The notes below the pieces were generated by a model. That model saw only the letters and a list, made by a program, of their open reading frames with translations, was not told where the DNA came from and ran no database searches. The position numbers and the translations under genes are program-made. Shown here one piece after another: positions 5,278 to 33,309 of a stretch of DNA of 34,249 nt (positions within the stretch are counted from its first letter, which is position 1; each line of letters opens with the position of its first letter). Source of the DNA: Parabacteroides hominis (GTDB lineage Bacteria > Bacteroidota > Bacteroidia > Bacteroidales > Tannerellaceae); assembly GCF_014287585.1 (NCBI RefSeq), contig NZ_JACOOJ010000046.1, forward strand, positions 1-34,249. Reading direction: 5' to 3'.

Positions 5278-5515
5278 AGAAAAATGAGTTAGCCGCACAT
5301 GTTCGATTGGGAAACTCATCAGTTTATTTTAATTCCGAGACACAGCTCTTGTCGTCAATGGCGGGTCGCACCCTTCGGGGCATGCTTAGCACGGCGGATT
5401 ACAAAGATGGCAAAGCACTCAAATCCTGTCATACGGAGTTTGTTCATATCTACGGTGCGGCTTTCTTCACATAAGAGAGGCTTTTCCTTCGGGAAGGGTC
5501 TCTTCTTATTTTTGA
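5278..5515 (+). ncRNA. Candidate structured non-coding RNA, about 235 nt
   Basis: A promoter (5241-5272) and a strong terminator (5475-5515) bracket DNA with no credible gene. Long-range complementarity suggests a rod-like RNA: AAGAA (5277-5281) with TTCTT (5463-5467), AGCCGCAC (5291-5298) with GTGCGGCT (5455-5462), then AAACTC (5312-5317) with GAGTTT (5436-5441), leaving a symmetric 13/13 internal loop. A closing stem, central bubble and apical part recall 6S RNA, but I cannot confirm that family. tmRNA, RNase P RNA and SRP RNA were considered and their conserved motifs are absent. The two overlapping ORFs (5214-5474, 5299-5583) have noise-like composition, and the second runs through the terminator. 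Confidence 0.5.
5475..5515 (+). terminator. Intrinsic terminator of the ncRNA unit, possibly bidirectional
   Basis: A 13-bp stem including G-T pairs (5475-5487 with 5492-5504) is capped by a TTCG tetraloop and followed by CTTATTTTTG. It sits between the plus-strand unit and the minus-strand HTH gene that ends at 5530. Confidence 0.88.
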
Positions 5516-5985: not shown

Positions 5986-8160
5986 ATGTTACTGCCAAAA
6001 CAGTCTCACAAATGTGTAACCGGGCTGGCTTTTGCTTGTTCGTTACTGTTGGTATCCTGCACTCCGAAAGAAGTCCGGCAGGTAAGTCTTATTCCCAAAC
6101 CGGAACAGATGACAATGACCGGAGGAGTCTTTCTGGTTGATAGTCTCGCTTTGTTTGGTGAGGAATCTTCTCAAAATCTTAAAGCTGTGATCGTTGATGC
6201 CTGGTCCGGTAGCCCGGAGGGTTATCGGTTGGACGTTACGTCGAAAGGGATCGATCTGCGTGCCGGTTCGCCGGACGGCCTGTTCTATGGGATGCAGACG
6301 TTACGCCAACTTTATGCCGGAGGAGAGGTTCCATGCGTTTCGATCCGGGATAATCCTCGTTTTGGGTATCGGGGATTGCATCTGGATGTTTCCCGTCATT
6401 TCTTTTCCAAAGAGGAAGTGATGAAATTGCTGGATGTGATGTCTTTTTACAAGCTGAACACCTTGCATATGCATCTGACGGATGCCGGAGGATGGCGTAT
6501 CGAGATAGACAAATATCCGAAACTTACTTCCGAAACAGCATTCCGAACCGAATCCGATTGGCGTAAATGGTGGGACGGTCGCGATCGTAAGTATTTGCCG
6601 GAAGGCACGCCGGGCGCTTATGGCGGTTACTACACGAAGGAGGACATCCGGGAGATCGTGAAACATGCAGCTTCCAAACATATTAATATAATACCGGAGA
6701 TCGAATTTCCGGGGCATTCGGAAGAGGTCCTGATGGCCTATCCCGAACTGAGTTGTTCCGGTAAGCCTTACCGGAACGGCGATTTTTGTATCGGCAACGA
6801 GCAGTCGTTTACATTCATGGAAGACGTACTGGCGGAGGTGATCGATCTTTTCCCGTCCGAATATATCCACGTCGGTGGCGATGAAGCCGGGAAGTCAGCC
6901 TGGAAAGAATGTCCGAAGTGCCAGGCTTTGATGAAGGAAAAAGGGATGAAGAGCGTGGACGAGCTTCAGAGTTACATGATTCACAGGGCTGAAGAGTTTC
7001 TGATTTCGAAGGATCGCAAGCTGATCGGTTGGGACGAGATCCTGGAAGGCGGTCTGGCTCCCGAAGCGACCGTCATGTCATGGCGGGGAGAAGACGGTGG
7101 AATCAAATCGGCCCGGATGGGGCATGATGTGGTGATGACGCCGGGTAATTATATGTATTTGGATTTCTATCAGGCCGATCCGAAGACACAACCGTATGCC
7201 ATCGGTGGCTATACGCCGATAAAGAAAGTGTATAGCTATAATCCCGTCCCGGCAGATTCGTTGACGGCGGAGGAATGCCGGCATATTTTGGGTGTGCAGG
7301 CCAATACCTGGACCGAGTATATCCAGACACCCGAACATCTGGAATATATGATGTTCCCGCGTGCCCTTGCCGTAGCCGAGATAGGATGGACGCCGCAGGA
7401 ATTACGGACATGGGAAGATTTCAAACCTCGCATGAATGCTCATATCTCCAAATTGCAGGGAATGGGGATCCGTACTTTTACCCTTTCGGACGAACTGGAA
7501 GTGACCATGCAGGTCGATACCGCAGGCAGAAAGATAGAAGTTATACTGGATGCCGAGAAATATCCGGCGGAAGTCCGCTACACGACGGATGGTTCGACTC
7601 CGGTTGCATCTTCCGCTTTATATGCCGGACCGATTATCGTGAGAGATTCAGCTTATATCAAAGCTGCTATTTTCCGGGACGGAGTTCTTCAGGGAACGCC
7701 GACGGAAAAGAAGGTGGATTATCATCAGGCCATCAATAAGCCTATACATTATAATAGTAAGCTCTACAAAGGCTATATGGCCGGAGGAATGAACGCCCTG
7801 TTGGATGGCTACCGCGGTGGCCTGACTTATCTGGACGGACGTTGGCAAGGCTATTTGGATGATCTGGACTGTGTGATCGATATGGAAGGGGAGACGGATA
7901 TCCATAAAGTGTCTATCCGTTTCATGCAACTGATCGGTCCGGGTGTGTTCCAACCCGGACAAGTGGAGTTGTTGACTTCGGAAGATGGGGAAAACTTTAT
8001 TTCCCGCGGAATTGTTCCAACAACGATTCCGGCTGACGATCCGGATCTTCTGTTCCAGGAATATACGTTCGACGGTAACTGGAAAGCCCGTTATGTCCGT
8101 TTGAAAGCGCCAAGGGCGAATCCCGGTTTTATTTTTGCGGATGAGATCGTTGTTTGGTAA
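5986..8160 (+). CDS. GH20 beta-N-acetylhexosaminidase, lipoprotein
   Basis: Removes terminal beta-linked GlcNAc/GalNAc from glycans by substrate-assisted catalysis. The 724-aa sequence starts with a lipoprotein signal (LLVSC, lipid-anchor Cys at 25), so it is probably bound to the outer membrane or faces the periplasm. Order: N-terminal GH20b domain (about 32-125), GH20 TIM barrel (about 128-480) with the hallmark HVGGDE giving the catalytic pair D299-E300, a chitobiase-type C-terminal domain with YTTDGSTP near 532, and an F5/8-type carbohydrate-binding module (about 590-724). GH92 follows 24 bases later, implying shared transcription and a joint job on host or dietary N-glycans. No SusC/SusD pair is present in the window. 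Confidence 0.95.
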   Translation: MLLPKQSHKCVTGLAFACSLLLVSCTPKEVRQVSLIPKPEQMTMTGGVFLVDSLALFGEESSQNLKAVIVDAWSGSPEGYRLDVTSKGIDLRAGSPDGLFYGMQTLRQLYAGGEVPCVSIRDNPRFGYRGLHLDVSRHFFSKEEVMKLLDVMSFYKLNTLHMHLTDAGGWRIEIDKYPKLTSETAFRTESDWRKWWDGRDRKYLPEGTPGAYGGYYTKEDIREIVKHAASKHINIIPEIEFPGHSEEVLMAYPELSCSGKPYRNGDFCIGNEQSFTFMEDVLAEVIDLFPSEYIHVGGDEAGKSAWKECPKCQALMKEKGMKSVDELQSYMIHRAEEFLISKDRKLIGWDEILEGGLAPEATVMSWRGEDGGIKSARMGHDVVMTPGNYMYLDFYQADPKTQPYAIGGYTPIKKVYSYNPVPADSLTAEECRHILGVQANTWTEYIQTPEHLEYMMFPRALAVAEIGWTPQELRTWEDFKPRMNAHISKLQGMGIRTFTLSDELEVTMQVDTAGRKIEVILDAEKYPAEVRYTTDGSTPVASSALYAGPIIVRDSAYIKAAIFRDGVLQGTPTEKKVDYHQAINKPIHYNSKLYKGYMAGGMNALLDGYRGGLTYLDGRWQGYLDDLDCVIDMEGETDIHKVSIRFMQLIGPGVFQPGQVELLTSEDGENFISRGIVPTTIPADDPDLLFQEYTFDGNWKARYVRLKAPRANPGFIFADEIVVW

Positions 8161-8179
8161 ATTAAGAATTAAGAATTAA
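8160..8179. repeat. AATTAAG tandem repeat between GH20 and GH92
   Basis: The same 20-bp AATTAAG array as at 1717-1736 starts on the last base of the GH20 stop codon and ends five bases before the GH92 ATG, filling the intergenic gap. Confidence 0.75.
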
Positions 8180-10654: not shown

Positions 10655-12406
10655 ATGTATAGAACAAGAACATGTGGCGACCTGCGCCTCGCTGATGAAG
10701 GCTTGGTGATTACGCTGGCCGGCTGGGTACAGAAAACCCGTAAGATGGGTGGCATGACGTTCGTGGATATCCGCGACCGTTACGGTATTACGCAATTGGT
10801 GTTTAACCAGGAAGTTGATGCCGCTCTTTGTGAGAAAGCAAATAAACTGGGACGCGAATATGTTATCCAGGTAACGGGAACCGTTCGCGAACGTTCCAGC
10901 AAAAATCCGAATATTCCTACCGGCGAGATCGAAATCATCGTTTCGGAACTGAATGTCCTGAATGCTGCCGTAACTCCTCCTTTCACGATTGAAGACGATA
11001 CGGACGGTGGTGACGACCTGCGTATGAAATACCGTTATCTGGATTTGCGTCGCAACGCCGTCCGCAAGAACCTGGAACTACGCCATCGTATGGCTTTCGA
11101 GGTTCGTAACTATCTGGACAAGCAGGGATTCCTGGAAGTGGAAACTCCGGTGCTGGTAAACTCTACGCCTGAAGGGGCACGTGACTTTGTCGTACCTTCC
11201 CGCATGAATCCGGGACAGTTCTACGCCTTGCCGCAATCCCCGCAGACCTTGAAGCAGTTATTGATGGTTTCCGGTTTCGACCGTTATTTCCAGATCGTGA
11301 AATGCTTCCGTGACGAGGACCTGCGTGCGGACCGCCAGCCTGAATTTACACAGATCGACTGCGAAATGAGCTTTGTGGAGCAGGAAGATGTGTTGAATAT
11401 TTTCGAAGGAATGGCCAAGCATTTGTTCAAGGTGATTCGCGGCATTGAAATAAAGGAAGCTTTCCCGCGTATGACTTGGCACGATGCCATGAAGTATTAC
11501 GGTAGCGACAAGCCGGACCTGCGTTTCGATATGAAGTTCGTGGAACTGATGGATATTATGAAGGGACATGGTTTCTCCGTATTCGATAACGCTGCTTATG
11601 TCGGCGGTATCTGTGCGGAAGGGGCGGCTTCTTATACGCGTAAGCAACTGGATGCGCTGACCGAATTTGTGAAACGTCCGCAGATCGGTGCAAAGGGCAT
11701 GGTATATGCCCGTGTGGAAGCCGACGGCAATGTGAAGTCGAGCGTGGACAAATTCTATACACAGGAAGTTTTGCAGCAGATGAAAGAAGCCTTCGGCGCA
11801 AAACCGGGCGACCTGATCCTGATCCTTTCCGGCGACGATGCGATGAAGACGCGCAAGCAACTTTGCGAATTGCGTCTGGAAGTGGCCGGCCAGTTGGGCT
11901 TGCGTGACAAGAACAAGTTCGCCTGCCTCTGGGTGATCGACTTCCCGCTGTTCGAGTGGAGCGAAGAAGACCAGCGTTTCTATGCTATGCACCATCCGTT
12001 TACTTCTCCTAAACCCGAAGATATTCCTTTGCTGGACAGCGATACGGGAGCTGTTCGTGCGAATGCATACGACATGGTGATCAATGGTGTTGAAGTGGGT
12101 GGCGGTTCTATCCGTATTCATGACAGCAAGTTGCAGGATAAGATGTTCCAGCTGTTAGGCTTCACCGAAGAAAAGGCACAGGAACGTTTCGGCTTCCTGA
12201 TGAATGCCTTCAAATATGGTGCGCCTCCTCACGGTGGCCTGGCTTACGGTCTGGATCGTTGGGTATCTCTGTTTGCCGGCTTGGATTCTATCCGTGACTG
12301 TATCGCGTTCCCGAAAAACAATTCCGGCCGCGATGTTATGCTGGATGCGCCCGGACAACTGGATGATTCGCAGTTGGAAGAACTGCAATTGGAAATTAAG
12401 AATTAA
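10655..12406 (+). CDS. aspS: Aspartyl-tRNA synthetase
   Basis: Class IIb synthetase that charges tRNA-Asp in the cytoplasm; 583 aa, the bacterial-type length. It has an N-terminal OB-fold anticodon domain (about 1-105; [20 protein letters not shown]), a catalytic core with motif 2 ([16 protein letters not shown]), the bacterial GAD insertion (about 280-410) and motif 3 GLDR at about 532-535. The C-terminal LEIKN and the stop codon are contributed by the AATTAAG repeat at 12394-12420, so the end of the protein is repeat-derived. The ATG at 10655 gives the normal [10 protein letters not shown] start. Confidence 0.97.
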
Positions 12407-12420
12407 GAATTAAGAATTAA
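12394..12420. repeat. AATTAAG tandem repeat, 3.9 units, overlapping the aspS stop
   Basis: Units at 12394, 12401, 12408 and a partial at 12415. It is the longest of the three copies in the window and the one that enters an essential gene. Confidence 0.8.
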
Positions 12421-12446
12421 AATTCAAAGAGAGTATCGCGAAGCCT

Positions 12447-17979: not shown

Positions 17980-18010
17980 TTGGCTTATACAAGTATTTTA
18001 TGTATTTTTG
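17980..18010 (+). promoter_or_regulatory. Promoter for the MntA-HepT gene
   Basis: TTGG (17980-17983) and TATTTTTG (18003-18010) are 19 bases apart. Predicted transcription start near 18017 rules against the earlier ATG at 18000 and supports the ATG at 18030. Confidence 0.65.
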
Positions 18011-18029
18011 CTTCCTGACATCGCTGAGT

Positions 18030-18785
18030 ATGAAAACGAAGAAAGAATATATCGATATACTTAAATTACATGTGCCGGAGTTGAAAAATCAATTTGGCAT
18101 CCGTTCATTTCGTTTGTTTGGCTCTGTTGCACGTGATGAACAGCAAGATGATAGTGATGTTGACGTTTGTGTAGAGATGGATCCGGATCTTTACCAGCTC
18201 GTCGGATTAAAACAATTTCTTGAAAAGTTATTAGGATGTTCTGTCGATGTTATTAGAATACACCGAAATATGAATAAATTATTGATGAAACAAATTGAAA
18301 AAGATGGATTTATGTCTTCTGATATTCAAGAAATGGTATTAGGGATTTTTCGGCAGATTGAAAATTCTATATTATTACTTCAAGAGTGGAATACTGAAAT
18401 AAATCAGGTTGATGACTATTTGCTATCTCCTGAGGGTATGAAGAACCTGGCAGCAAGTTGTATGCTTATTGAAGCTATAGGGGAAGGTGTCAAGAAGATT
18501 GATAAGAAAACAGGAGGTGTGCTATTGCCTATGCGTCAAGAAATACCTTGGAGTAGAGTAATGGGAATGCGAGATCATATAGCCCATGGCTATTTTGATA
18601 TTGATGCTGATGTTGTTTTCCAAACCATAAAAAATAGTAAATTTATGTGTCTTTCTCGTCATGAGAGAAATTGGCGGAAGACCCTGCCAAGCCGCATGAA
18701 TACTGCATTTGTGTGCAGAATTTCAGATATGAAATTGATTGAGAATCAGTCAAAATGCCGCCCGATTGCCGCCCCAATTTCCTAA
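18030..18785 (+). CDS. Fused MntA nucleotidyltransferase antitoxin / HepT toxin, aberrant C-terminus
   Basis: Residues 1-95 form a minimal nucleotidyltransferase with the full GSX10DXD signature (G31-S32 to D43-V44-D45). Residues about 100-205 form a HepT domain with the RX4HXY motif intact (R181, H186, Y188). In known systems these are two genes: MntA adds AMP to the HepT tyrosine and so silences its RNase activity. Here they are one frame, with no stop at the junction (DGFMSSDIQEM); the internal ATG there could restore separate HepT translation. After about residue 205 the usual HepT C-terminus is replaced by an unrelated Arg/Cys-rich tail that reads into palindromic, mobile-element-like DNA. 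The gene may therefore be disrupted. AT-rich compared with neighbours. Confidence 0.8.
   Translation: MKTKKEYIDILKLHVPELKNQFGIRSFRLFGSVARDEQQDDSDVDVCVEMDPDLYQLVGLKQFLEKLLGCSVDVIRIHRNMNKLLMKQIEKDGFMSSDIQEMVLGIFRQIENSILLLQEWNTEINQVDDYLLSPEGMKNLAASCMLIEAIGEGVKKIDKKTGGVLLPMRQEIPWSRVMGMRDHIAHGYFDIDADVVFQTIKNSKFMCLSRHERNWRKTLPSRMNTAFVCRISDMKLIENQSKCRPIAAPIS
18719..18748. repeat. Two adjacent small palindromes in the HepT tail
   Basis: AATTTCA-gata-TGAAATT (18719-18736) is followed by TGATT-gag-AATCA (18736-18748). Such clustered dyads often mark recombinase or regulator sites; here they lie where the HepT homology ends. Confidence 0.5.
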
Positions 18786-20679: not shown

Positions 20680-22428
20680 TCATCCCTGCTCCAAAGTATT
20701 CCTGTATTCCGACGGCGTCATGCCATATTTATCCCGGAAGATGCGATAGAAGCTGCGGACGCTGTTGAAGCCCGAATCCACGGCAACCGCTTCTATCGTG
20801 TAGCCCTGGAAGTCTTTGAGCAGGCTGAGGGAATGGTCCAGCCGCTTGTTGTTCATGTACGTGTTGAAGTTCGTCCCGTTGTATGTCTGTATCAGTCCGG
20901 CGAAGACATTTTTAGAGATATGGATCTGCTTCAGCAACTGGTCGCGGGAGATGTCCGGGTCGAGATATAGCTTTTCCTCGTCGATCAGCCGGTCCAGTTC
21001 GGCAAACAGCTTTTTGTTCAGTTCGGAAGTCCTTCTGGCGTTCTCTTCCGCGGCGGCTTCCGGCATCTCTTCCTCCGCACCGGCTTGTATTTGCTGTTTG
21101 AGCAGTTCGATTTCCGCATTCGCCTTTTTCAGTTCTTCCCGGTAAGCCAGCTGGCTGTCGATCTGTGTGGCGAGGAACCGGTTCTTGCGCTTGATGGCCC
21201 GCAGGTGCTGGCAGATGAAGAAGATGGCAAGCCCGGCGAGCAGCAGCAAAGCCACCGAGCCGTAGAGCGTGGCGCGTTGTCGGCTGATATGCTTGTTTTG
21301 TTCTTCGATCTGCCGGTTCTTCTCGTTCGTCTGGTAGATGGTCGCCAGTTCGATCGCCGCGTTTTGCTTGTCGCGTGCCGTGAGGCTGTCCTGGATCGCC
21401 GTAATGCGGCCGAGGTAGCCCGCCTGGCTCCGGTAATCGCCCGAACCGGCTGCTATTTTAGCCAGGTTGCCCAGGTGGATGATGAAATCGAGGTTGACCG
21501 TGTCGTTCCCGAAGATCTCTTCACCGGGGATAATGGCGGCGGCTTTTTTGTACTGTCCCGATTCGAGCAGGTAAGGGACGGCATCCCTTCTGCCAATCAG
21601 GGTCTTGGAAAACCGTGTCGCGTTGAATTTCCCGTAAGCCCCGGCAGCCTTTCCGGGCTGGCCGTCCTGCTCGTAGGCGCTTGCCAGCTTGCTGTAGAGG
21701 AACCCGTATTGCTCGTCGACATAACCTTTCGGAGGTCCCGCCATGCCGCTGATCCTGCCGATCAACAACTCCCTTTTTTCTCCCGTTTCGATCGCTTTCC
21801 CAAATTCTTTCCGGCTCATGTCTCCGGCCATCTGCATACCGTAGATATAAGAGAGGTAAGCCAGTTCCCTGACGTCGTGGCTGTCTTCGAGCAGCCGGAT
21901 GGCTTCGGCGGAATAGGCTTCGGCCTCGTCATGCATGAATTGCGCCCGGTATATCATCCCGATGGAGTAGAGCATTTCGCTTTCCATCCGCCTGTTGTCA
22001 TCCTTCCGGGCTTTTTCGCATAGCTCCGTGGCCACCCGCATGGCTTCCGCGTAGTTGGACAGGCGTATGTTGAGGTCCACGAACGCGCTTTTCAGTTTGA
22101 ACTCCTGCTGGGGCGCGATCGTCTTCATGGAATCGCTTTTCATCGCTTTTTTCAGGTAGTCTTCGGCGATGTGGTACATGCCTTTGCCATTATAGATGGA
22201 GTAGCGGAAGTAGTTCGCCTGCAAATCCGGGATGTTCCCCCGGCTCTCCGCCGTGTCCACAAGGCCGAGAGCCCTTTGCGGGTCGTCGATATAGATTTTC
22301 GTGATATACTGGCTTGTGTAAATGCTGTCGGAAGGAGAGGCCGTACCGCTTTGTTGCGGCGCCTGGGTGCATTGCCAGGCCAGCAGCAGATAAACCATAA
22401 GGCAAAAGATAGGGTAGAATGTTTTCAT
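20680..22428 (-). CDS. Membrane-anchored TPR sensor with AraC-type DNA-binding domain
   Basis: 582-aa Bacteroidetes-type regulator with these parts: N-terminal signal (residues 1-19, then Cys20; the lipobox AWQC is not canonical), periplasmic TPR-like helical repeats (about 45-370; YAEAMRVATELCEKA, DEAEAYSAEAIRLLE), one membrane span at about 387-408 (GSVALLLLAGLAIFFICQHL), a coiled coil (about 415-455), and an AraC HTH_18 pair at about 475-580 (ISRDQLLKQIHISKNVFAGL and VDSGFNSVRSFYRIFRDKYG, then MTPSEYR). The layout suggests it senses a periplasmic cue and controls DNA from the membrane. Targets are unknown; the divergent surface operon at 22802-34120 is the natural guess. Homologs in Bacteroides are mostly uncharacterised. 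Confidence 0.9.
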   Translation of the reverse strand: MKTFYPIFCLMVYLLLAWQCTQAPQQSGTASPSDSIYTSQYITKIYIDDPQRALGLVDTAESRGNIPDLQANYFRYSIYNGKGMYHIAEDYLKKAMKSDSMKTIAPQQEFKLKSAFVDLNIRLSNYAEAMRVATELCEKARKDDNRRMESEMLYSIGMIYRAQFMHDEAEAYSAEAIRLLEDSHDVRELAYLSYIYGMQMAGDMSRKEFGKAIETGEKRELLIGRISGMAGPPKGYVDEQYGFLYSKLASAYEQDGQPGKAAGAYGKFNATRFSKTLIGRRDAVPYLLESGQYKKAAAIIPGEEIFGNDTVNLDFIIHLGNLAKIAAGSGDYRSQAGYLGRITAIQDSLTARDKQNAAIELATIYQTNEKNRQIEEQNKHISRQRATLYGSVALLLLAGLAIFFICQHLRAIKRKNRFLATQIDSQLAYREELKKANAEIELLKQQIQAGAEEEMPEAAAEENARRTSELNKKLFAELDRLIDEEKLYLDPDISRDQLLKQIHISKNVFAGLIQTYNGTNFNTYMNNKRLDHSLSLLKDFQGYTIEAVAVDSGFNSVRSFYRIFRDKYGMTPSEYRNTLEQG

Positions 22429-23560: not shown

Positions 23561-23575
23561 TAGAAAAGAAATTAG

Positions 23576-23672
23576 GAACACGCCATGTTCTCGGTCGGGA
23601 ACAGGGCGTGTTCTCGCTCAGGAACAACCGATGTTCTCGCTCAGGAACAACAGGTGTTCTCGCTAAGGAACA
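23576..23672. repeat. Array of four and a half interrupted dyads, 23-bp period (TGTTC-N8-GAACA)
   Basis: Perfect dyads TGTTC-N8-GAACA start at 23586, 23609, 23632 and 23655, exactly 23 bp apart. Spacers are TCGGTCGG, TCGCTCAG, TCGCTCAG and TCGCTAAG. A lone GAACA at 23576-23580 sits in register as the right half of a fifth unit. The array lies between the stop of the HU-like gene and the ATG of the giant gene, with no T-run after any dyad. Confidence 0.9.
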
Positions 23673-23709
23673 AAGAGAGATCGAAATAATAAATACACAC
23701 GATAAGCGT

Positions 23710-26700
23710 ATGATTATAAATTTACAATTAAGGAATGAAGGCAAGGCCGAAAAGAACTGGCCTCGCTTTCGGTTCGGGGTATGGTTGGTCTTGATGCTTG
23801 TATTGTCGGCTGCGAAAAGCTACGGACAAGACAGCCGTCTGGCAGATAAATCAAACTACTTGGTTACCAATAATGAACGAAACGGCTATGTCTCCTTTCA
23901 GATACCGATATTAGACGATCAAGGAAATAATGAATGGGTTGACGCAAATAATAAAGGGTATCTGTATGTGACGATAAAAGGTGGTAAACCGGTGAAAATC
24001 ATGACTTATAGCTCTAATTCTGAACACACAGATATGCCAACCGCACCTGCGGCGATGACACTCCATATTGGTAGTGCCGTGTTCAAAACCACAGATGGAA
24101 ACAAAGAAGGTAGTGCTGGAAAAGATTATAACTATAGATTCAGCCGTCAAGGACAGTATGTTACTTATATGATTTTCGATTGGTATTATCCGCCAGAATA
24201 TGAAGGGAAAGTGATGGACTTTTCCGTAGGTGCATACATTGCTGTTTATGAAGGTGGAACTGACAATGATTACCGCTTTGATGGTGATATCGGGACAGGA
24301 GGCTACAACGCCCGCGATTTCTCCGATCCGACATTGGGAGCACCTACTCTTTCTTACACGGAAGTCGGAAAGTATCAAATGACTTACAATACGACTGAAA
24401 CACCCGTCAAGATTTGGAATAGCATAGCTAATAGTTGGAGTAACTCTACCAATAAGTCCGGTACGTTATATGCCCCTATCCAAGATTCAAAAAGGGAGTA
24501 TACATTCAAGGTCAAATACCAGTTGAACCAGTTTTATGAGACTAACGAGCATTCGGTGGCCACAACCATAAAAGGATTTCAACAAGCGAAAAATTTCACA
24601 GCGGCGGAAGGTGCAAACGGAAATACCTTGCTGACTTGGTCTATCGTTAGTGAAAACAATTGTGAAACAGGCGATAACTTTGAAATCCAACGTGCTCAAA
24701 AGGCGGATTTTGAGTCTCCGGAAACTGTCGGAACGGTGGATTTCGATCCCAACCAAACGAGTTATAGTTTTACGGATAACAGCGGTAACCAGAATTTGAA
24801 CGGGACGTTATATTACCGGATACGTCGTACTAAACAAGCAGCGAGCTGGGGATGGAGCATCACACAAACAGCGCAAATAACGAAAGACATCTCGCATCGG
24901 AATGTGGTATCGGCTACTGCTGATCGGCATGAGTGGAGTGCAGCCTCTCAAGCCAAAATATCATGGGATTTGGAGGGGATAGCAAACAACAAAGTGTGGT
25001 CTGACGGAGCCGAATTGATCGTCACACGTACTATGGACTATGGTAAAGGGACCATTAAAAGTGTAGATTTAACAGCCAGTGACGAGGATATCGAGAAGGG
25101 CTATATGATCGATAATTTGGATGCGCTATGCGTGAAATATAGCTATACGGTTCGTGTAAAACCGGGTAATACCCATTTCAAGGCACAAGAAGCCGTCACT
25201 GCAACAGTGACAGGAGATCCGATCTTCCCGACAGAAATGGGAAAGGTCGCGTCGCTCACGGTCTCCAAAGGCTATTTCCCGACTTACACTTCACTGCAAT
25301 GGACGACCGACGAGAAAGCGATCGACCAGTTCCAAATCATGCGCCGTTCCGTCAAGGAAGGACAGGGTGAAGATGATGGATGGGATATCCTCCAAACGGA
25401 TGCGGGAGGGACACAGGCCTCTTATGTTTATATAGATGAGCATGGATTGCCGGGCGTAGTTTATGAATACCAAGTTCGCGCCTTGACGACTTGTGCCGAT
25501 GAGACATCCGTAAACCGTTCCGAGATTGTGCGCGGTTTCCGTAGCCCGACCGGGACTATCAGCGGACAGATCCTGTTCAAATATGGTGATGCAATGGTCG
25601 GAGCCGAAGTGCTTTTAACTTCCGCAGAACCAGGTTTGACAACAGGACAGAGCCTTCAGTTCGCCGGCAGCACGAACAGCTATATGGAAACGACTACAGC
25701 AATGACAGTTCCGACGGATGCCTCTATTCAGCTGTTTGTTAAACCGGCAGCAGGGAATCAGAATGTGACGTTGCTCTCTTGGGGACGCTACCGCGTCGGC
25801 ATTCAAGGGGGGAAAGCAGCCATCAGTGCCGATGGAGGAGCTAATTGGCAACAAACAGAAGCAGCCTTGCCAACCAATCAATTCACGCAACTGACTGCCG
25901 TGTTCGATACCGATCTTTCACTTTATCTTTATGTCGATGGCGAAAAGGTGATCGAAACGACTGCTTCAGGCCATGTCGGCGGAAGTACCGAGCCGGCCAA
26001 TGTGACAATCGGTAAAAGCTTCAATGGCTATCTCGATGAGATCCGCCTGTGGGAACGGGTGTTGGATGAAGGTAAGGGGGATATTAAAAATACGTATAAC
26101 CGCTTGTTGACCGGTAACGAAAACGGCCTGGTTGCCTATTGGCGACTGAATGACCCGGTGACGGACGAAACGTATGATATCTCCTATACGGGAACAAACT
26201 ACCATAAAAACCATGCCAAGCTGACAGGCGTCAAATTGAGTACGGATGAACATCCGACTGACGGGCAGTTAGGCTTGCGTGGCCTGACAGATGGGGCTGG
26301 AAACTATCAGATCACGGGAGTCCCTTACATTGGCAGTCAGACGTCCTATGTTGTAACCCCTTCTTATACGGGACATACATTTGAACCTGTTTCGACCACC
26401 GTGACGATTGGCAACCAACAACCGGTAGCGGCCGGAATCAACTTCAAAGATGCTTCCGCTTTCACGATTCGAGGGTATGTCTTCTATGAAAACAGTACCA
26501 TCCCCATAACAGGCGTCACCTTCTCGGTCGATGGCGTCAAAGTGGTCGGCGGAAACAATTCCCCGGTGACAACAGACGCGAATGGTCAATTTTCTTTCAG
26601 CGTGCCGACCGGCACACACTCGGTACAGATCGAAAAAGCGAACCATGTATTTAAAGACAATGGTTTCTTGTTAGATGACAATGGATTAAACTTCAACTAC

Positions 26701-29700
26701 CAGGATGAATCCCTGTTTACCGACGTCCGTTTCTGGGACCAGACGAAAGTGAAACTGATCGGTCGTGTGTCAGGCGGTACGGTCGAAGGTAACAAGCCGC
26801 TCGGTTTCTCGCTCTCAAAAAACAATCTGGGAGACGATACTTATCTGAAACTTACTTTGGAAGGGAATACCTCTGCCTACTTGAGCACGGAGAAGAAAGA
26901 CAGCACGATGACGCACTACGACGGCAAGCATAGCAACACGGTTTCATACGAACAGTCATACATCAAAATTTCTCCGGACAGGCTCACCGGAGAGTTCACG
27001 GCATGGCTCTATCCTGAAAAATACAAAGTGGACGAGATCTCTGTTAAAGGACACGGTGACTTGCTGTCTGGTACGGGTCAAACACTCTCGCTGACCGACT
27101 GCTTTAATGAGCAGACCTCGGAATACATGGACGGAAACGAGGTGACACACCGGATCATCTACAATGCCGACTATAACTATACCCGACGGGTCGATCCGGC
27201 CTTGACCTACGTGCAGTTGAACCGTGCCGGCGGGAAACCGCTCGATTACTTTGGCGACAAGGCATTTTTGATGGTGACGCAAACGGGCGATAACGAAGAG
27301 ATCATGCTCTATGATGAAGGCAACAAGAAGTATCTGTTTGAGCATCCCATCTTCCATGCGGCGACTTACCACTTCCGGGTGTCGAGCCATGAAGATTATT
27401 ACTATAATAACGTAAAAGAAGGAGAGGAGATCAGAGTAGACCAAGTGCCGACACAGGGTGGAATATTGAAGATCACGAACCAGATGGGCACAATCAGCCA
27501 ACCGGCAAACGTCGAATTGGATGATAATGGTTCCGCTGATGTAGAAATCACGGTAAATAACCCGGATATTACAGGGGTTAGTAAAGGTGTAAAAAGTTTG
27601 GATTTCTCCGTGGGAGGTACGAACGCTCAGCAACTGGAAGCAATTGTTCTCGGTGCTCGCGTAAAAGGCAACAGCTATGTTACGGCAGGACCGATCCGCC
27701 TGTTCAACATCTTGCGCGACCCGCCCGGCAGCAACAGCTACTCTTATTGCGAGAAAGGGCAGGTCTACAGTTACCACTCCTCATATGCGACAGGGAAAGC
27801 ACAATCAGGCAGTGAAACGGTTAACTCATATTTCGGTCCGTCGATAACAAGCGGTGTCGGTGTCATGGTGACCAACGAAGCCATCAATACCGTCGGCGTC
27901 AAAAGCGACCACGAGGTTTCGAGCAGCGATGCCAACTCCGAGACGTTCTCCATTACGACTACTTCGCGCTACCAGACCAGTGACGATCCGCTTTATGTCG
28001 GTGCTGATGGCGACCTCTTCTTGGGAACCACCAGTAACATCCAGTATGGACCGGCAGACGACATCACTCTGATGACCAAAGAAGAATACCAGCGTTTGGT
28101 TGATGCAAACCATGAAAGTGTTTTCGGGGAAGGGAATGGCATACTGCAAGAAGTAGGCAATTATGTCGTTGCCAAACGCACGGCCCTTAGTGTCGGTGTG
28201 AAACATGACACCTTCTTTGCTTATCCGCAGATATTTATTAAAAATACGTTGATGGATAATATCCGGGCGGTACGAAACTCGCTGTTTGCGCCCTACGGTA
28301 CAACGGAAGCGCAAGCCAAAGCGATGGCTGATGTCAATAATGCTCCTGTCTACCTTACTCACAGGAAAGCGGACGAAGAGGATTATGGCGAAGACAATAA
28401 GATAAATAACAACGCGAACGGAGAAACTGTTGAAGAGGGAGGATATGCCTCCAACGGCGATAGCTACACCGTTATCTTGCCGAGCGGAAGTTTCGAGGGT
28501 ACTTCGGATTCCATCTACGTTTTGAACCAGAGCATTCGCCAGTGGGAAGCCTTGTTGGAACAAAACGAAAAGGAGAAAGTCTCGGCAACTGATTTGATCA
28601 GCAACTATTCGATACATGCCGGAGCATTGATGGAGTATGCCGAAGAAATGTCGCATGTGACGGAACAGACGCATACCTACAACCTGATAGCCGGCGGAGG
28701 GCTGCTTGGTGATCTTGGATTCAAGGGAGGTGGCGTCGGTGTGGTCGTCTCGATCGAAGAATTGGGTTATGGTACGAAAGACGAAGAGTCCGGCTCTTCT
28801 TCCGAAGAAACTCGTTCGGCCGGCTTCGTGTTGGCGGATGAAGGCGATGATGATTTTTTGAGTGTGAATGTCTATCGTGTGAAAGCTCCGGGAACGGAAA
28901 ATGACGATTTCAACGACAAATGGGATTCGGACTTGGGTTCATACATTAAGGATAAACAATATGGCAGTTTCGTCTTCCTGACACAGGGTGGTGCGACAAG
29001 CTGCCCGTATGAAGGCGAATTGAGGACGGAGTATTACAATCCTGGGACTGTAATCAACAAAGCGACTTCGAAGATAGAGAATCCGAAAATTTCTGTAGAA
29101 AAGCCGGTCATCAGCAATGTCCCGTCCGATCAGGCCGCCACGTTCGTATTGAATCTTTACAACGAGTCGGAAATAGCTGAAGGCTGTTACTTCAATCTTT
29201 CAATTGTTGATGCTGCTAACCAGCAGGGAGCTAAGTTTTCGATCGACGGTGTACCTTTGGCAGATAAACGTGGTATTTTGGTCAACTATGGGGAACCCTT
29301 GCAGAAGACTTTGGAAATTCGTCGGGGTACGGAATATGATTACGAAGACTTGGCGGTTGTCATTAGTTCGCAGTGCCAGACAGATCCGACAGGTTTCCAG
29401 GATATCATTGCCGATACGGTCTATATCTCCGCTCACTTCATCCCGTCTTCTTCGGACATCAACATCAAGAGCCCGACGGACAAATGGACGCTGAATACGC
29501 AGTCTTCGCTCGATTCTACTTCCGGCAAATACTACATACCGCTCACGATCGACGGTTTCGATGTGAACTTCCAGGGTTTCGACCATATTGAGATCCAGTA
29601 CAAACCCTCTTCCGGTTCCGATAAGGATTGGACGAATATTTGCAGTTTCTACAACGATTCCGTTCCCTATAAAGCAGCTACCGGCGAGAAGGCCATGATC

Positions 29701-32700
29701 GAGGGAGCGACGATCTCGACCCGTTTCTATGGCGCCGAAGACCAGAAGTACGACATCCGCGCGGTGACGTTCAGCAAGGTAGGCAATGAGTTCGTGACGA
29801 AATCGTCTCCGATCATCTCCGGCGTGAAAGATACCAAGCGGCCTGTCGTGTTCGGCAATATCCAACCTGCCGACGGCGTGTTGGGCATCGAAGACGAAAT
29901 CCGCCTGACCTTCAACGAAGAGATTGCCGAAGGGTATATGACCGACGTGAAGAACTTCCAGGTGACAGCCGTGCGCAACGGTTCGAATGGCGACCATTCG
30001 ACTTCGCTCACCTTCGACGGAGCCTCTTCTTATCTGGCGACACAGGCCGAACGCAACCTGACGGACAAAGACTTCTCGGTCGAAATGTGGGTATTGCCCG
30101 CTACACTCGGCCAGGAAATGACGCTGTTCAGCCACGGGACGACAACCAATGCGCTGGAACTCTCGATCGGGGCGGACAATTCGATCCAGGTAAGCATCGG
30201 AGGAAAAGTCTATACTTCCAAGCCGCAGAGCTTCAAAACAAGCGATTGGGCGCACGTCGCCATGACCTATAAGGCATCCAACCGCCAGCTCTCCGCTTAT
30301 TTCGGCGGAACGGAAGTGATCACCGGGGTACAGACCTCCGATCCGAACACTTCGATCGGGCCGATGCTGTTCGGGCGCAGCGTGAAGGGCGGCGATTATT
30401 TTGCCGGTAAGATGCACGAAGCACGTGTCTGGAACAAAGTGGTAAGTTCGAACGAAATCATGGCGAACAAGCTGACCATTTACACCGGACAGGAAGCGGG
30501 CATGCTGGCCTACTATCCGATGAACGACGGTAAGGGCGACCGCGTGACCGACAAGGCGCAGGGAGCTACGGCCTGGGTGTATGGCGCCGACTGGAGCACG
30601 CTTGCCGGGCTGTCGGTCGCGTTTAAGGGAGACACGCTTATGGCCGTCAATTCCTCTAAAGTGGCCTTGACGGATGCGCAGGATTATACGCTTGAATTTT
30701 GGTTCAAAGCGGCTCCCGGACAGAAAGATGCCGCTTTGGTGTCGAACGGGAAGGGTGTCGGCGATGAAAATAACACGAACCGCAACAAGGTGTTTGTCGG
30801 TTTCGCCGATAACAAGTTGGTGTTCCGTAATAACGGCCATGAAGAGGTGCTTTCCGGAAAGTGGGACGACGACAGTTGGCATCATTTTGCCATTGCCGTG
30901 AACCGTAATGCCGGGAATGCGCAGGTATTCCTCGACGGTGCGCTGAATACTTTCTTCGATGCGGGCAAGTTAGGAGGTTTCTCAGGCACGACCCTTTATC
31001 TGGGCGCTCGTCGTTGGACGAAAGCTACGCAGATGGTCGACACTACGGATATGTACCTGAAAGGGCAGGTGGACGAACTCCGCCTTTGGAACATGGCGTT
31101 GCCTTCGACAATCATCAATAAGAACTATAACGTTTGCCCGAAGGGGACGGAAATGGGCTTGATGATGTATCTGCCGTTCAGCAAATATATAAGGAATAGC
31201 GCGAACGTCCAGGAGATGGTCTTCAGCGGTGAAGACATGGTGACGGATTCGACGTTGGTCACCGCCGGCAGCCGGTTGGCTTCCGAGGAGAAAGCGCCTG
31301 TACGGGCGAAGGGGCCGGAAGTCTCTATCCCGTTCACCTTCGTGGTCAACAAGGATGCGTTGGTCATCAACCTGATGGACACGCCTGAAGCGTTGGAGAA
31401 GACGGTGGTCAACTTTACGGTCAAGGATGTGAGCGACCTGAATGGCAACCTGATGCAAAGCCCGGTGACCTGGAGCGCGTATATCAACCGCAACCAGTTG
31501 AAGTGGAGCAAGCCTTCCATCACGAAAGAAAAGAAACTGTATGCTCCGATGAGCTTTACGGTCGATGTGGAAAACCAGGGCGGCACGGAAAAGAACTTCA
31601 CGATCGAAGGGCTTCCTGCCTGGTTGAAGGCTGATCCGGAATACGGGACAATCGACCCGTTGGGACGCCAGACGATCCTCTTCACGGTGGACGAAGGCAC
31701 GAATGTGGGCCGTTATGACGAGGTTGTCTATGTGAAAGGCGACAATAACGTGTCGGAGGCTTTGCCGGTCACATTGAAAGTGTTTGACGAGCAACCGGAC
31801 TGGACGGTCGATCCGGCTGATTTCAAATATAACATGAATATATACGGTAAACTGCGCGTGAACAAGCTGTTCTCGACGGATGCCGAGGATATGATTGCCG
31901 TGTTCGATGGCGGTCGTTGCGTAGGGGTTGCGAACAACCAGTATGCGGACAAGAATGATATGTGGTATGTATTCCTGACCGTTTACGGGAACGAGATCAG
32001 GGGCAGCGAATCGTTGAGCTTCCGCGTATGGGATGCCAGTACCGGGACTGTCTACGATGCCTGGTCTGATTCACCGATTACGTTCGGCAGCAATTCTGTC
32101 GTGGGAACGGCTTCGACTCCGGTTATCTTTGATGCCGAGGAACGGGTGGTTCAGAATATCAACCTGACGGAAGGCTGGAACTGGGTTTCTTTCAATGTCA
32201 AGAGCGATACTCCTGACCTGGCGACAATTTTGAAAAACACGATGTTGGCAGGCGACGAGCAGGTGAAAGACGAGGCGATGGGCTCATTTGCCGCTTACGA
32301 CCAGGAATCTAAGACGTGGTTAGGCAATAACATCGTTTTCGACAACAAGCACATGTATCTGATCCAGTCTTCTGTCGCACAGAAACTGTCCGTTTCGGGC
32401 ATCGCGATCAAGGAGAAGGAAGACTTGACGATACCGGTGGCCAATAACTGGAATTATATCAGTTACCTGCCGATGACCAACTTGCCGATCGGTGAGGCTT
32501 TGTCCGGCTATAATGCGAAGGAAGGCGATATTGTCAAGTCGCAGAATGCCTTCTCCATGTACGTAGTGAAGACCGGCTGGCTGGGGAATCTGACCTATAT
32601 GGAACCGGGCAAAGGCTATATGCTGCTGAATAACGGCGAAAGCACGTCTTTGGTTTATCCGGATATGATGGGCGGCAGCGGTTTGAGAAGCACGGGTGTC

Positions 32701-33309
32701 CTGACGCGTTCGGGTGATGCGATGACGACCGGAACCGGTTATGCGGACACTCGCTTTGAAGCGAATATGTCTGTCGTGGCAACGGTAGCAGAGAGTTTGC
32801 CGGTTTATGCAGGCGACAAATTGCAGGCGTATGTCGGTGGCGAATTGCGGGGTGAAGCCTTGCTGACGGAAGATCCGTATGACGGCAGGCCGCTGTACTT
32901 TGTTTCGATCGGCGGAGACCGTAACGAATCTGTTTCTTTCGCTCTCGAACGGGGTGGAGAGATTATTGCCGAGACTTCTCCGATGTTCGACTACCGGGTG
33001 AACAATGTGCAGGGCAGCATCGAGCAGCCTGTTATCCTCGATTTCGTCAACGATCTGCAGATTTCGGTTTATCCGAATCCGTTTGAACGTGAACTGAACT
33101 TTGTGATGAACACGCAGCCTGGCGATAAGGTCGGGATTTACCTCTACACAATGGCGGGGCAGATGATACATCGTCATTCTGAAACCAGTGTCAACGGAGG
33201 TTACCTGCATTATCGTTGGGAGTGCTATGAGGATTTGGCGCGTACGGTCTATATGGCAGTCGTGGTCGTGAACGGACAGAAACATGTGTATAAAGTAAAA
33301 AGGAAGTAA
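23710..33309 (+). CDS. Giant secreted multidomain surface protein (LamG, Ig-like, type IX sorting domain), 3199 aa
   Basis: The frame opens at 23608, but the first 34 codons are dyad-array noise; ATG at 23710 gives a signal peptide ending about residue 39 (VLMLVLSAAKSYG). Domains: fibronectin-like repeats (about 290-620); a carboxypeptidase-regulatory-like fold (about 622-915) interrupted by LamG 1 (648-815); a second such fold (918-985); an unrecognised central region with a Gly-rich stretch (AGGGLLGDLGFKGGG) near 1660-1680; an Ig-like Big_5 fold (about 2050-2590) interrupted by LamG 2 (2099-2285) and LamG 3 (2302-2490); a BACON-like domain (2600-2690); paired surface modules; and a C-terminal VYPNPF domain (3116-3199) typical of type IX secretion cargo. 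It probably binds glycans or partner cells. Operon with 33314. Confidence 0.9.
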   Translation: MIINLQLRNEGKAEKNWPRFRFGVWLVLMLVLSAAKSYGQDSRLADKSNYLVTNNERNGYVSFQIPILDDQGNNEWVDANNKGYLYVTIKGGKPVKIMTYSSNSEHTDMPTAPAAMTLHIGSAVFKTTDGNKEGSAGKDYNYRFSRQGQYVTYMIFDWYYPPEYEGKVMDFSVGAYIAVYEGGTDNDYRFDGDIGTGGYNARDFSDPTLGAPTLSYTEVGKYQMTYNTTETPVKIWNSIANSWSNSTNKSGTLYAPIQDSKREYTFKVKYQLNQFYETNEHSVATTIKGFQQAKNFTAAEGANGNTLLTWSIVSENNCETGDNFEIQRAQKADFESPETVGTVDFDPNQTSYSFTDNSGNQNLNGTLYYRIRRTKQAASWGWSITQTAQITKDISHRNVVSATADRHEWSAASQAKISWDLEGIANNKVWSDGAELIVTRTMDYGKGTIKSVDLTASDEDIEKGYMIDNLDALCVKYSYTVRVKPGNTHFKAQEAVTATVTGDPIFPTEMGKVASLTVSKGYFPTYTSLQWTTDEKAIDQFQIMRRSVKEGQGEDDGWDILQTDAGGTQASYVYIDEHGLPGVVYEYQVRALTTCADETSVNRSEIVRGFRSPTGTISGQILFKYGDAMVGAEVLLTSAEPGLTTGQSLQFAGSTNSYMETTTAMTVPTDASIQLFVKPAAGNQNVTLLSWGRYRVGIQGGKAAISADGGANWQQTEAALPTNQFTQLTAVFDTDLSLYLYVDGEKVIETTASGHVGGSTEPANVTIGKSFNGYLDEIRLWERVLDEGKGDIKNTYNRLLTGNENGLVAYWRLNDPVTDETYDISYTGTNYHKNHAKLTGVKLSTDEHPTDGQLGLRGLTDGAGNYQITGVPYIGSQTSYVVTPSYTGHTFEPVSTTVTIGNQQPVAAGINFKDASAFTIRGYVFYENSTIPITGVTFSVDGVKVVGGNNSPVTTDANGQFSFSVPTGTHSVQIEKANHVFKDNGFLLDDNGLNFNYQDESLFTDVRFWDQTKVKLIGRVSGGTVEGNKPLGFSLSKNNLGDDTYLKLTLEGNTSAYLSTEKKDSTMTHYDGKHSNTVSYEQSYIKISPDRLTGEFTAWLYPEKYKVDEISVKGHGDLLSGTGQTLSLTDCFNEQTSEYMDGNEVTHRIIYNADYNYTRRVDPALTYVQLNRAGGKPLDYFGDKAFLMVTQTGDNEEIMLYDEGNKKYLFEHPIFHAATYHFRVSSHEDYYYNNVKEGEEIRVDQVPTQGGILKITNQMGTISQPANVELDDNGSADVEITVNNPDITGVSKGVKSLDFSVGGTNAQQLEAIVLGARVKGNSYVTAGPIRLFNILRDPPGSNSYSYCEKGQVYSYHSSYATGKAQSGSETVNSYFGPSITSGVGVMVTNEAINTVGVKSDHEVSSSDANSETFSITTTSRYQTSDDPLYVGADGDLFLGTTSNIQYGPADDITLMTKEEYQRLVDANHESVFGEGNGILQEVGNYVVAKRTALSVGVKHDTFFAYPQIFIKNTLMDNIRAVRNSLFAPYGTTEAQAKAMADVNNAPVYLTHRKADEEDYGEDNKINNNANGETVEEGGYASNGDSYTVILPSGSFEGTSDSIYVLNQSIRQWEALLEQNEKEKVSATDLISNYSIHAGALMEYAEEMSHVTEQTHTYNLIAGGGLLGDLGFKGGGVGVVVSIEELGYGTKDEESGSSSEETRSAGFVLADEGDDDFLSVNVYRVKAPGTENDDFNDKWDSDLGSYIKDKQYGSFVFLTQGGATSCPYEGELRTEYYNPGTVINKATSKIENPKISVEKPVISNVPSDQAATFVLNLYNESEIAEGCYFNLSIVDAANQQGAKFSIDGVPLADKRGILVNYGEPLQKTLEIRRGTEYDYEDLAVVISSQCQTDPTGFQDIIADTVYISAHFIPSSSDINIKSPTDKWTLNTQSSLDSTSGKYYIPLTIDGFDVNFQGFDHIEIQYKPSSGSDKDWTNICSFYNDSVPYKAATGEKAMIEGATISTRFYGAEDQKYDIRAVTFSKVGNEFVTKSSPIISGVKDTKRPVVFGNIQPADGVLGIEDEIRLTFNEEIAEGYMTDVKNFQVTAVRNGSNGDHSTSLTFDGASSYLATQAERNLTDKDFSVEMWVLPATLGQEMTLFSHGTTTNALELSIGADNSIQVSIGGKVYTSKPQSFKTSDWAHVAMTYKASNRQLSAYFGGTEVITGVQTSDPNTSIGPMLFGRSVKGGDYFAGKMHEARVWNKVVSSNEIMANKLTIYTGQEAGMLAYYPMNDGKGDRVTDKAQGATAWVYGADWSTLAGLSVAFKGDTLMAVNSSKVALTDAQDYTLEFWFKAAPGQKDAALVSNGKGVGDENNTNRNKVFVGFADNKLVFRNNGHEEVLSGKWDDDSWHHFAIAVNRNAGNAQVFLDGALNTFFDAGKLGGFSGTTLYLGARRWTKATQMVDTTDMYLKGQVDELRLWNMALPSTIINKNYNVCPKGTEMGLMMYLPFSKYIRNSANVQEMVFSGEDMVTDSTLVTAGSRLASEEKAPVRAKGPEVSIPFTFVVNKDALVINLMDTPEALEKTVVNFTVKDVSDLNGNLMQSPVTWSAYINRNQLKWSKPSITKEKKLYAPMSFTVDVENQGGTEKNFTIEGLPAWLKADPEYGTIDPLGRQTILFTVDEGTNVGRYDEVVYVKGDNNVSEALPVTLKVFDEQPDWTVDPADFKYNMNIYGKLRVNKLFSTDAEDMIAVFDGGRCVGVANNQYADKNDMWYVFLTVYGNEIRGSESLSFRVWDASTGTVYDAWSDSPITFGSNSVVGTASTPVIFDAEERVVQNINLTEGWNWVSFNVKSDTPDLATILKNTMLAGDEQVKDEAMGSFAAYDQESKTWLGNNIVFDNKHMYLIQSSVAQKLSVSGIAIKEKEDLTIPVANNWNYISYLPMTNLPIGEALSGYNAKEGDIVKSQNAFSMYVVKTGWLGNLTYMEPGKGYMLLNNGESTSLVYPDMMGGSGLRSTGVLTRSGDAMTTGTGYADTRFEANMSVVATVAESLPVYAGDKLQAYVGGELRGEALLTEDPYDGRPLYFVSIGGDRNESVSFALERGGEIIAETSPMFDYRVNNVQGSIEQPVILDFVNDLQISVYPNPFERELNFVMNTQPGDKVGIYLYTMAGQMIHRHSETSVNGGYLHYRWECYEDLARTVYMAVVVVNGQKHVYKVKRK

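Follow-up and report, generated by a model that had tools for sequence, protein, structure and literature searches.

Dyad arrays with a 23-bp period lie behind many genes for HU-like/DUF4469 proteins in Bacteroidales and in a second phylum

In a contig of Parabacteroides hominis, the short region between a gene for an HU-like protein and a gene for a very large surface protein carries a regular series of inverted arms, and it is natural to ask what this series is and to which of its neighbours it belongs. We analyzed the entire stretch of 34,249 nucleotides in which it lies, which we call the window (Table 1). An earlier note on this DNA had described a strictly periodic 23-bp array of TGTTC-N8-GAACA dyads, i.e., four dyads and a half unit, and an exact motif search and TRF bore this description out. 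Its placement of the array between the HU-like/DUF4469 gene (stop at 23560) and the gene for the 3199-aa protein (ATG at 23710) is also correct. The 34-kb window contains only four exact matches to TGTTC-N8-GAACA (starting at 23586, 23609, 23632 and 23655), all of them in the array, and TRF reports a period of 23 at 23574-23672 (score 106) and at 23586-23673 (score 113). In the first 125 bp past the stop codon of the HU-like gene, 15 bp beyond which the array begins, identity at a lag of 23 is 0.68 (z ~10 against base shuffles). The array can equally be read as four GAACA-N5-TGTTC dyads; the two readings describe one object, because a single mirror through a circle of 23 bp yields two axes, one of them odd and the other even. 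In the consensus of the window array, 7 of 11 column pairs are complementary, and its symmetry rests on the nine exact arms.

Table 1. Coordinates of the array and of the features around it in the window
Feature	Position	Strand	Basis or remark
Whole array, nine alternating GAACA/TGTTC arms, period 23 bp	23576..23672		Direct sequence, motif search, TRF
First GAACA-N5-TGTTC dyad	23576..23590		Half unit of the earlier note (GAACA 23576-23580) and first arm of dyad 1
Dyad 1, TGTTC-N8-GAACA	23586..23603		Exact motif match
Dyad 2, TGTTC-N8-GAACA	23609..23626		Exact motif match
Dyad 3, TGTTC-N8-GAACA	23632..23649		Exact motif match
Dyad 4, TGTTC-N8-GAACA	23655..23672		Exact motif match
HU-like gene, 252 aa	22802..23560	+	PF14848 HU-DNA_bdg, residues 5-124; PF14734 DUF4469 Ig-like, residues 132-231
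Short leader, array to start codon	23673..23709	+	37 bp; ATG at 23710
3199-aa surface protein gene	23710..33309	+	Laminin_G_3 repeats, carboxypeptidase-regulatory-like domain, T9SS sorting tail
Divergent gene	20680..22428	-	AraC-type HTH and weak TPR match; adjoins HU-like gene on its other side

The HU-like protein belongs to both of its Pfam families (PF14848, 119.9 bits, cut-off 30; PF14734, 103.2 bits, cut-off 22.6). Over nearly its full length, its fold resembles that of BVU_2165 of Bacteroides vulgatus (4fmr), residues 28-117 being HU-like and residues 127-239 IPT/TIG-like; 4fmr is a solved structure that was deposited as a putative DNA-binding protein, under a title that mentions no array. 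The T9SS sorting tail of the 3199-aa protein scores 23.9 bits (cut-off 23). The window resembles chromosomal DNA of a Bacteroidales genome near Parabacteroides: its aspS gene is 81% identical to that of P. distasonis, in whose record tilS, NIF3 and an HU-DUF4469 gene likewise lie in the aspS neighbourhood. Elsewhere in the window, an ORF at 18000-18785 encodes a nucleotidyltransferase with a HepT-like domain, with scores under the cut-offs of the MntA/HepT equivalogs, and 7-bp tandem repeats (AATTAAG, AATTGAC, TGAAAGG) stand at or near several ORF ends (898-930, 1498-1524, 1717-1736, 8160-8179, 12394-12424).

The earlier note could match the array to no named element, and we likewise found none in Rfam or in the open literature. 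An Rfam scan of the window found nothing over the gathering threshold in the array; the sole match in the window is the Bacteroidales-1 RNA, a suggested 6S RNA (RF01693, 185 bits), at 5291-5468. A search for phage matches in the array region returned none. CRISPR arrays consist of conserved repeats around unique spacers of about 30 bp, a plan that the window array does not follow: its 23-bp units directly adjoin one another, and the spacers in them measure 5 and 8 bp. As for an intrinsic terminator, for which a GC-rich hairpin with a T-run behind it would be expected, there is no terminator-like site on the plus strand in or behind the window array, and one weak site on the minus strand (23712-23696).

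The motif TGTTC-N8-GAACA itself, which the earlier note took to be the element, does not hold up as such. For one Tannerellaceae MAG (G001), we searched 123 genomes of its family; the paired motif occurs in two of these, in G001 with period 23 and in the other with period 22; relatives keep the geometry with other arms. A search for pairs of TGTTC dyads 0-20 bp apart yielded at least 118 stretches in genome contigs and 25 in viral contigs. Among the matches listed, most pairs have spacings other than that of the 23-bp form, which among them occurs in G001, an Archaeoglobales contig (L043) and five viral contigs (L126, L127, L135, L136, L142). Several other arrangements were seen in the course of these searches. 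The Flavobacteriaceae MAG SJ88 has long 21-bp TGTTC/GAACA arrays of up to 17 units (L020, L045, L108), and many Pelagibacteraceae loci (e.g., L002-L004, L011, L015) have a conserved pair near TGTTCGAATAGATGAACA, with 8-9 bp between the copies, adjoining ATATCTATATCCGAT. Scattered through G001 are dyad arrays of 23 and 42 bp whose arms are of several types (L244-L263, L155, L157, L010), e.g., TTACC/GGTAA units directly adjoining a TGTTC array.

We also searched without regard to letters, i.e., for arms together with their reverse complements in register, and beside HU-DUF4469 homologues this revealed dyad arrays of 23 bp whose arms differ from TGTTC, e.g., GCAAA/TTTGC, GCGTCA/TGACGC, GATAA/TTATC, GTGTA/TACAC and TGAAG/CTTCA. 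In Parabacteroides distasonis (NZ_OY725761), an array with arms GGTAA/TTACC lies directly past the stop codon of the HU-DUF4469 gene. What is conserved among relatives is the geometry, i.e., the spacing, and not TGTTC. The interpretation in the earlier note, which set the array before a giant surface gene, is partly supported; beyond what it noted, the array goes with the upstream HU-like gene family and recurs, with different arms, behind most members tested in two phyla.

This association was measured at 30 homologue loci (one short locus, L189, having been dropped), using the first 125 bp past the stop codon and lags of 8-60. The best lag was 23 in 24 loci and 46 in three, i.e., 27 of 30, and mean identity was 0.53 at lag 23 and 0.48 at lag 46, against 0.22-0.28 at other lags. 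A larger set comprised 133 distinct HU-DUF4469 genes, drawn from loci that had been retrieved on the strength of a Pfam or protein score and located with an HMM that was built from 37 array-bearing proteins and that could slightly favour array-bearing members. For the 132 genes tested at lags 8-40 (one short locus was dropped), the strongest period 3' of the stop codon was 23 bp in 95, 24 in 12, 22 in 4 and another value in 21, so that 111 of 132 have a period of 22-24 bp. In the upstream flanks (n=102), the strongest period was never 22 or 23, and was 24 in 8 cases.

It is important to consider how these loci were obtained. They were fetched without regard to arrays, except those of G001, whose family and order were sampled and which was itself reached through its arrays. 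Without G001, 100 of 118 HU-like genes have a period of 22-24 bp; among its own genes, 11 of 14 have a period of 22 or 23. Sixty regions were picked by hand from the listed matches because their flanks were long, at a stage when their arrays had not yet been viewed, and five of these are loci already examined. When one gene is retained per cluster of proteins at 80% identity, 92 of 111 are at 22-24 bp and 78 at 23. With a fixed score, HU genes from many genomes can be compared with other genes from two genomes, each represented by a long contig: a 22-24 bp array follows 95 of 130 HU genes, versus 6/276 and 21/303 other genes, and an array of exactly 23 bp follows 81 of 130, versus 0/276 and 5/303. 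A stricter score gives, for 22-24 bp, 76 of 130 versus 4/276 and 17/303.

Matches to PF14734 were found in 71 of the 123 genomes of G001's family, with at least 36 matches in one genome, and in 10 of 149 genomes sampled across the order. In the order-wide set of 29 matches, arrays are frequent and not universal, at least six loci having no period of 23 (L266, L269, L272, L287, L288, L289). The array begins at a median of 19 bp past the stop codon, and the number of units ranges from about 3 to 16 between loci. The next ORF is co-directional with the HU-like gene in 53 of 59 cases and often encodes a large surface protein, as judged by Pfam scans of nine hand-picked proteins and the window's own. 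As a separate observation, 22-bp dyad arrays with private arms occur near the 3' ends of unrelated genes in genomes of the Tannerellaceae family (16/303 in G037 and 6/276 in G071; L204-L243), and 13 of the 24 non-HU sites of 22/23 bp that we inspected in these two genomes lie between convergent genes.

The same arrangement was found in a second phylum, namely that of the genome (G276) whose contig is titled Spirochaetia bacterium; PF14734 matches occur in 68 of its 392 genomes. Thirty loci were returned, and 29 HU-like genes, located with the HMM named above, could be tested. A 23-bp period exceeded the score limit behind 20 of these; eight genes were under the limit, and one had a period of 14, in a sequence that still shows 23-bp units (L385). 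None of 28 upstream flanks has a 23-bp period. Because some loci are near copies of one another (L388/L389, L397/L398/L400, L404/L405), only about 16 of the 20 arrays are distinct. The 22 arrays collected from this phylum, near copies included, have the same design: within arrays, central arm columns are conserved at about 0.9 and spacer centres less so (0.77-0.94 for arms versus 0.73-0.84 for spacers). A tendency toward RR-S-N-S-YY around the odd axis is common to the arrays of both phyla. In both phyla, gene and array occur together, and the period hardly departs from 23 bp except in one part of the family, where it is 24.

Dyad symmetry is clear for the set of arrays, and not for each single array. 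In 92 arrays with period 23 that were chosen with no symmetry filter, a mean of 7.3 of 11 column pairs are complementary at the best mirror, versus 5.9 for shuffled consensus sequences. At least 8 pairs are complementary in 36 of the 92 arrays (3.5% of shuffles) and at least 7 in 63 (20% of shuffles), leaving 29 under 7. For the analysis of conservation, we kept 100 of 133 arrays, dropping those with a lag value below 0.6 or with fewer than six paired columns. In the 84 Bacteroidales arrays with period 23, conservation within arrays is 0.85-0.96 in columns 3-9 from the odd axis, versus 0.70-0.81 in spacer columns. Between arrays, the central arm columns share 0.01-0.06 bits, and most columns beside the two axes share 0.1-0.2 bits. 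The period, for its part, follows the HU gene family, to which shared descent of the loci may contribute. On a tree of 88 HU proteins within length limits, six of the eight 24-bp arrays with usable proteins have one another as nearest neighbours, with arms that differ among them, and period 24 requires 3 Fitch changes, versus 7.8 on shuffling (the lowest of 1000 shuffles being 5). The loci L193 and L367, which do not have period 23, were left out of the HU-tree, T-run and compensated-change analyses.

We propose that the array is the cis half, and the upstream HU-like/Ig-like protein the protein half, of a two-part module in which the HU part reads spacing and dyad shape and tunes the next gene; we give this proposal an even chance of being right. 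The HU-like protein would bind the double-stranded array cooperatively, with one dimer per 23-bp unit (~2.2 turns), and would read dyad symmetry, spacing and the weak RR-S-N-S-YY preference at the centre, not fixed arm letters. Phased dimers might bend or bridge the stretch that separates the HU gene from its next neighbour on the same strand, which is often the first gene for a surface structure. The bent nucleoprotein stretch could then tune transcription into this gene, by silencing or by read-through, with the array length (3 to 16 units) as the setting. Binding by HU, cooperativity and an effect on expression are what we infer from the sequences. A broader claim we hold only tentatively, considering it somewhat improbable as a whole: that the pair of regulator and array is common to Bacteroidales and the second phylum, with an HU/IPT-type protein that recognizes the 23-bp dyad geometry while arm letters are free, so that nearly every locus has a private, self-complementary code.

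Several observations count against this module. Of the HU-like genes, 21 of 132 have no 22-24 bp period, and similar 22-bp arrays stand away from HU genes. Many arrays, taken one by one, do not exceed chance in symmetry, and compensated double changes (counts below) are no more evident between neighbouring arms than between others, at low power. HU proteins that are nearly identical can have unrelated arms beside them. Even so, the arms within one array agree closely, which reading of geometry alone would not bring about; this agreement could reflect a common origin of the units together with selection for symmetry, or a reader of letters.

The array might instead act as RNA: transcribed between the HU gene and the surface gene, its units would form a row of hairpins by which the transcript is attenuated, terminated or protected. 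We consider this explanation unlikely. The frequent co-direction of the next ORF agrees with it as well as with the module, the window array is predicted to fold strongly (-41.5 kcal/mol on the sense strand, a value with no shuffle control), and RNA-based read-through has been proposed, in excerpts of the source, for a capsule repeat of P. gingivalis (PMC3969353). However, the opposite strand is predicted to fold about as strongly (-39.0). If the arms paired as hairpins in a transcript, G.U pairs ought to be accepted there. Counted on the sense strand, distinct substitutions in paired columns lead to G.U about as often as to A.C: 90 vs 93 in Bacteroidales, 28 vs 29 in the second phylum, and 118 vs 122 combined. 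An apparently significant asymmetry in 37 arrays, with an excess of A.C over G.U (21 vs 7 events; 60 vs 21 cells), vanished in 100 arrays. A T-run stands behind 1 of 98 arrays, compared with 3 of 98 control stretches. Since G.U-making and A.C-making changes are equal and T-runs are missing, RNA hairpins or terminators are not favoured. There is also no excess of local compensation, at low power: compensated double changes number 8/1602 and 9/1608 between neighbouring arms, and 3/1205, 5/1199, 3/796 and 6/802 between non-neighbours. These results favour a double-stranded DNA element over an RNA, although they do not prove it. They also separate the two mechanisms that the earlier note had offered: the regular dyads are spaced as they would be for a dimeric protein, as it suggested, whereas its row of RNA hairpins, with neither a G.U preference nor a T-run, fares worse.

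It is quite improbable, in our judgment, that each HU-like paralogue recognizes the arm letters of its own array, as a sequence-specific operator whose specificity shifts quickly through a few residues. The conservation of arms within arrays is what such an operator predicts, and arm similarity does correlate weakly with HU similarity among 76 proteins within length limits (Mantel rho 0.12, a value that none of 1000 permutations reached). Arm similarity climbs from 0.25 to 0.33 at up to 70% identity and is 0.58 in the 6 pairs with an identity of at least 90%. One such pair, L211/L221, has HU proteins that are 96% identical and arms that differ by one base, changed in both arms. However, arm similarity lies at 0.25-0.34 in every class of HU identity up to 90%, with 0.276 at 70-80% and 0.344 at 80-90%, against an overall mean of 0.274. 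Because these values stay near the mean, a given HU protein does not fix which letters the arms have. At one pair of loci (L175/L368), the HU proteins differ by 17 mostly conservative substitutions, yet the arms are largely different, and in one pair with 95% HU identity the arm similarity is 0.2. Unrelated arms beside nearly identical HU proteins mean that any reading of sequence by HU must be weak. Co-variation between HU residues and arms gave seven columns just over the permutation limit, with relatedness uncontrolled.

We judge it no more probable that the arrays are minisatellites, self-amplifying or neutral, i.e., hairpin-prone sequences at 3' ends that are duplicated by slippage or by an enzyme in steps of 22-23 bp, and that HU genes tolerate or attract. 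Such an origin would suit the private-arm 22-bp arrays at other 3' ends in two genomes and the dispersed 23- and 42-bp arrays of G001, and tandem repeats of 23 and 22 nt are known in P. gingivalis according to excerpts of PMC4596501. However, it would not account for the strong concentration of arrays at a single gene family in both phyla, for arms that are more conserved than spacers, or for a period that tracks the HU tree. Finally, a single dyad, with its paired arms around an 8-bp spacer, resembles the core sites of tyrosine recombinases, but a target for site-specific recombination or inversion is extremely improbable given tandem units in one orientation, spacer centres that are the least conserved columns of both spacers, and no recombinase among the 10 window proteins scanned with Pfam.

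The proposed module of HU-like protein and array can be compared with several known systems. In iteron/Rep and ParB/parS systems, a protein gene also lies beside a tandem array of sites, but the letters of these sites are conserved between close relatives, whereas here only spacing and symmetry are. The closest published biology that we found is that of P. gingivalis, with the HU protein PG0121 and the BrickBuilt repeat. According to excerpts of two reports, PG0121 is co-transcribed with a capsule operon in which there is an inverted repeat of 77 bp, and without PG0121 the capsule genes are transcribed less (PMC3969353; PMC8757827). In these excerpts, the likeness consists of an HU-family gene with a surface-structure operon and an inverted repeat in the 5' part of this operon. 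PG0121 is, however, described there as highly similar to E. coli HU, while the window protein joins HU to an Ig-like domain, and the single 77-bp repeat lies near the other end of the operon, while the window has tandem dyads behind the HU gene. With tandem 23-bp dyads, an HU + Ig-like protein and a surface-protein gene next in line, the window does not have the layout of the PG0121 system.

The BrickBuilt MITE of P. gingivalis, as portrayed in excerpts of PMC4596501, consists of 23-nt tandem, intergenic units in variable copy number for which self-folding is predicted, and 5 of its 19 sites have as neighbours genes whose products end in a T9SS (PorSS) C-terminal domain. The window array also consists of intergenic 23-nt tandem direct repeats. 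However, BrickBuilt, which we compared by its description and not by letters, is one repeat family shared by 19 sites, with a leader, a tail and IS5-like ends, and these excerpts name no HU-DUF4469 gene. The window holds one array, and the arrays of relatives have mostly locus-private arms. A search of the window for terminal inverted repeats of the GAGACCTTTGCA type, with at most 2 mismatches, gave 3 matches where chance predicts 2.64, and there is no match in the 1 kb on either side of the array.

A member of the same protein family as the window protein, TDE_2259 of Treponema denticola (PF14848 + PF14734), adjoins, by locus number, the surface-protein gene lrrA/BspA (TDE_2258), and mutation of trtA lowers the two in parallel (log2 -5.18 and -5.69, respectively), as given in excerpts of PMC12724145; no repeat array is reported in these excerpts. 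In the open full-text literature, which leaves out most subscription papers, we found neither a description of the HU-DUF4469/array pair nor an assigned function for the PF14848+PF14734 family, and the pair of HU-like gene and palindrome array appears not to have been described.

For this family of proteins, the array offers a candidate site. The pair of array and HU-like protein could explain part of the control of large surface proteins and capsules in gut and oral bacteria. If the broader claim is true, these genomes would contain an operator for surface-structure genes that is read by its spacing and not by its letters, with spacing and symmetry being inherited while the sequence turns over.
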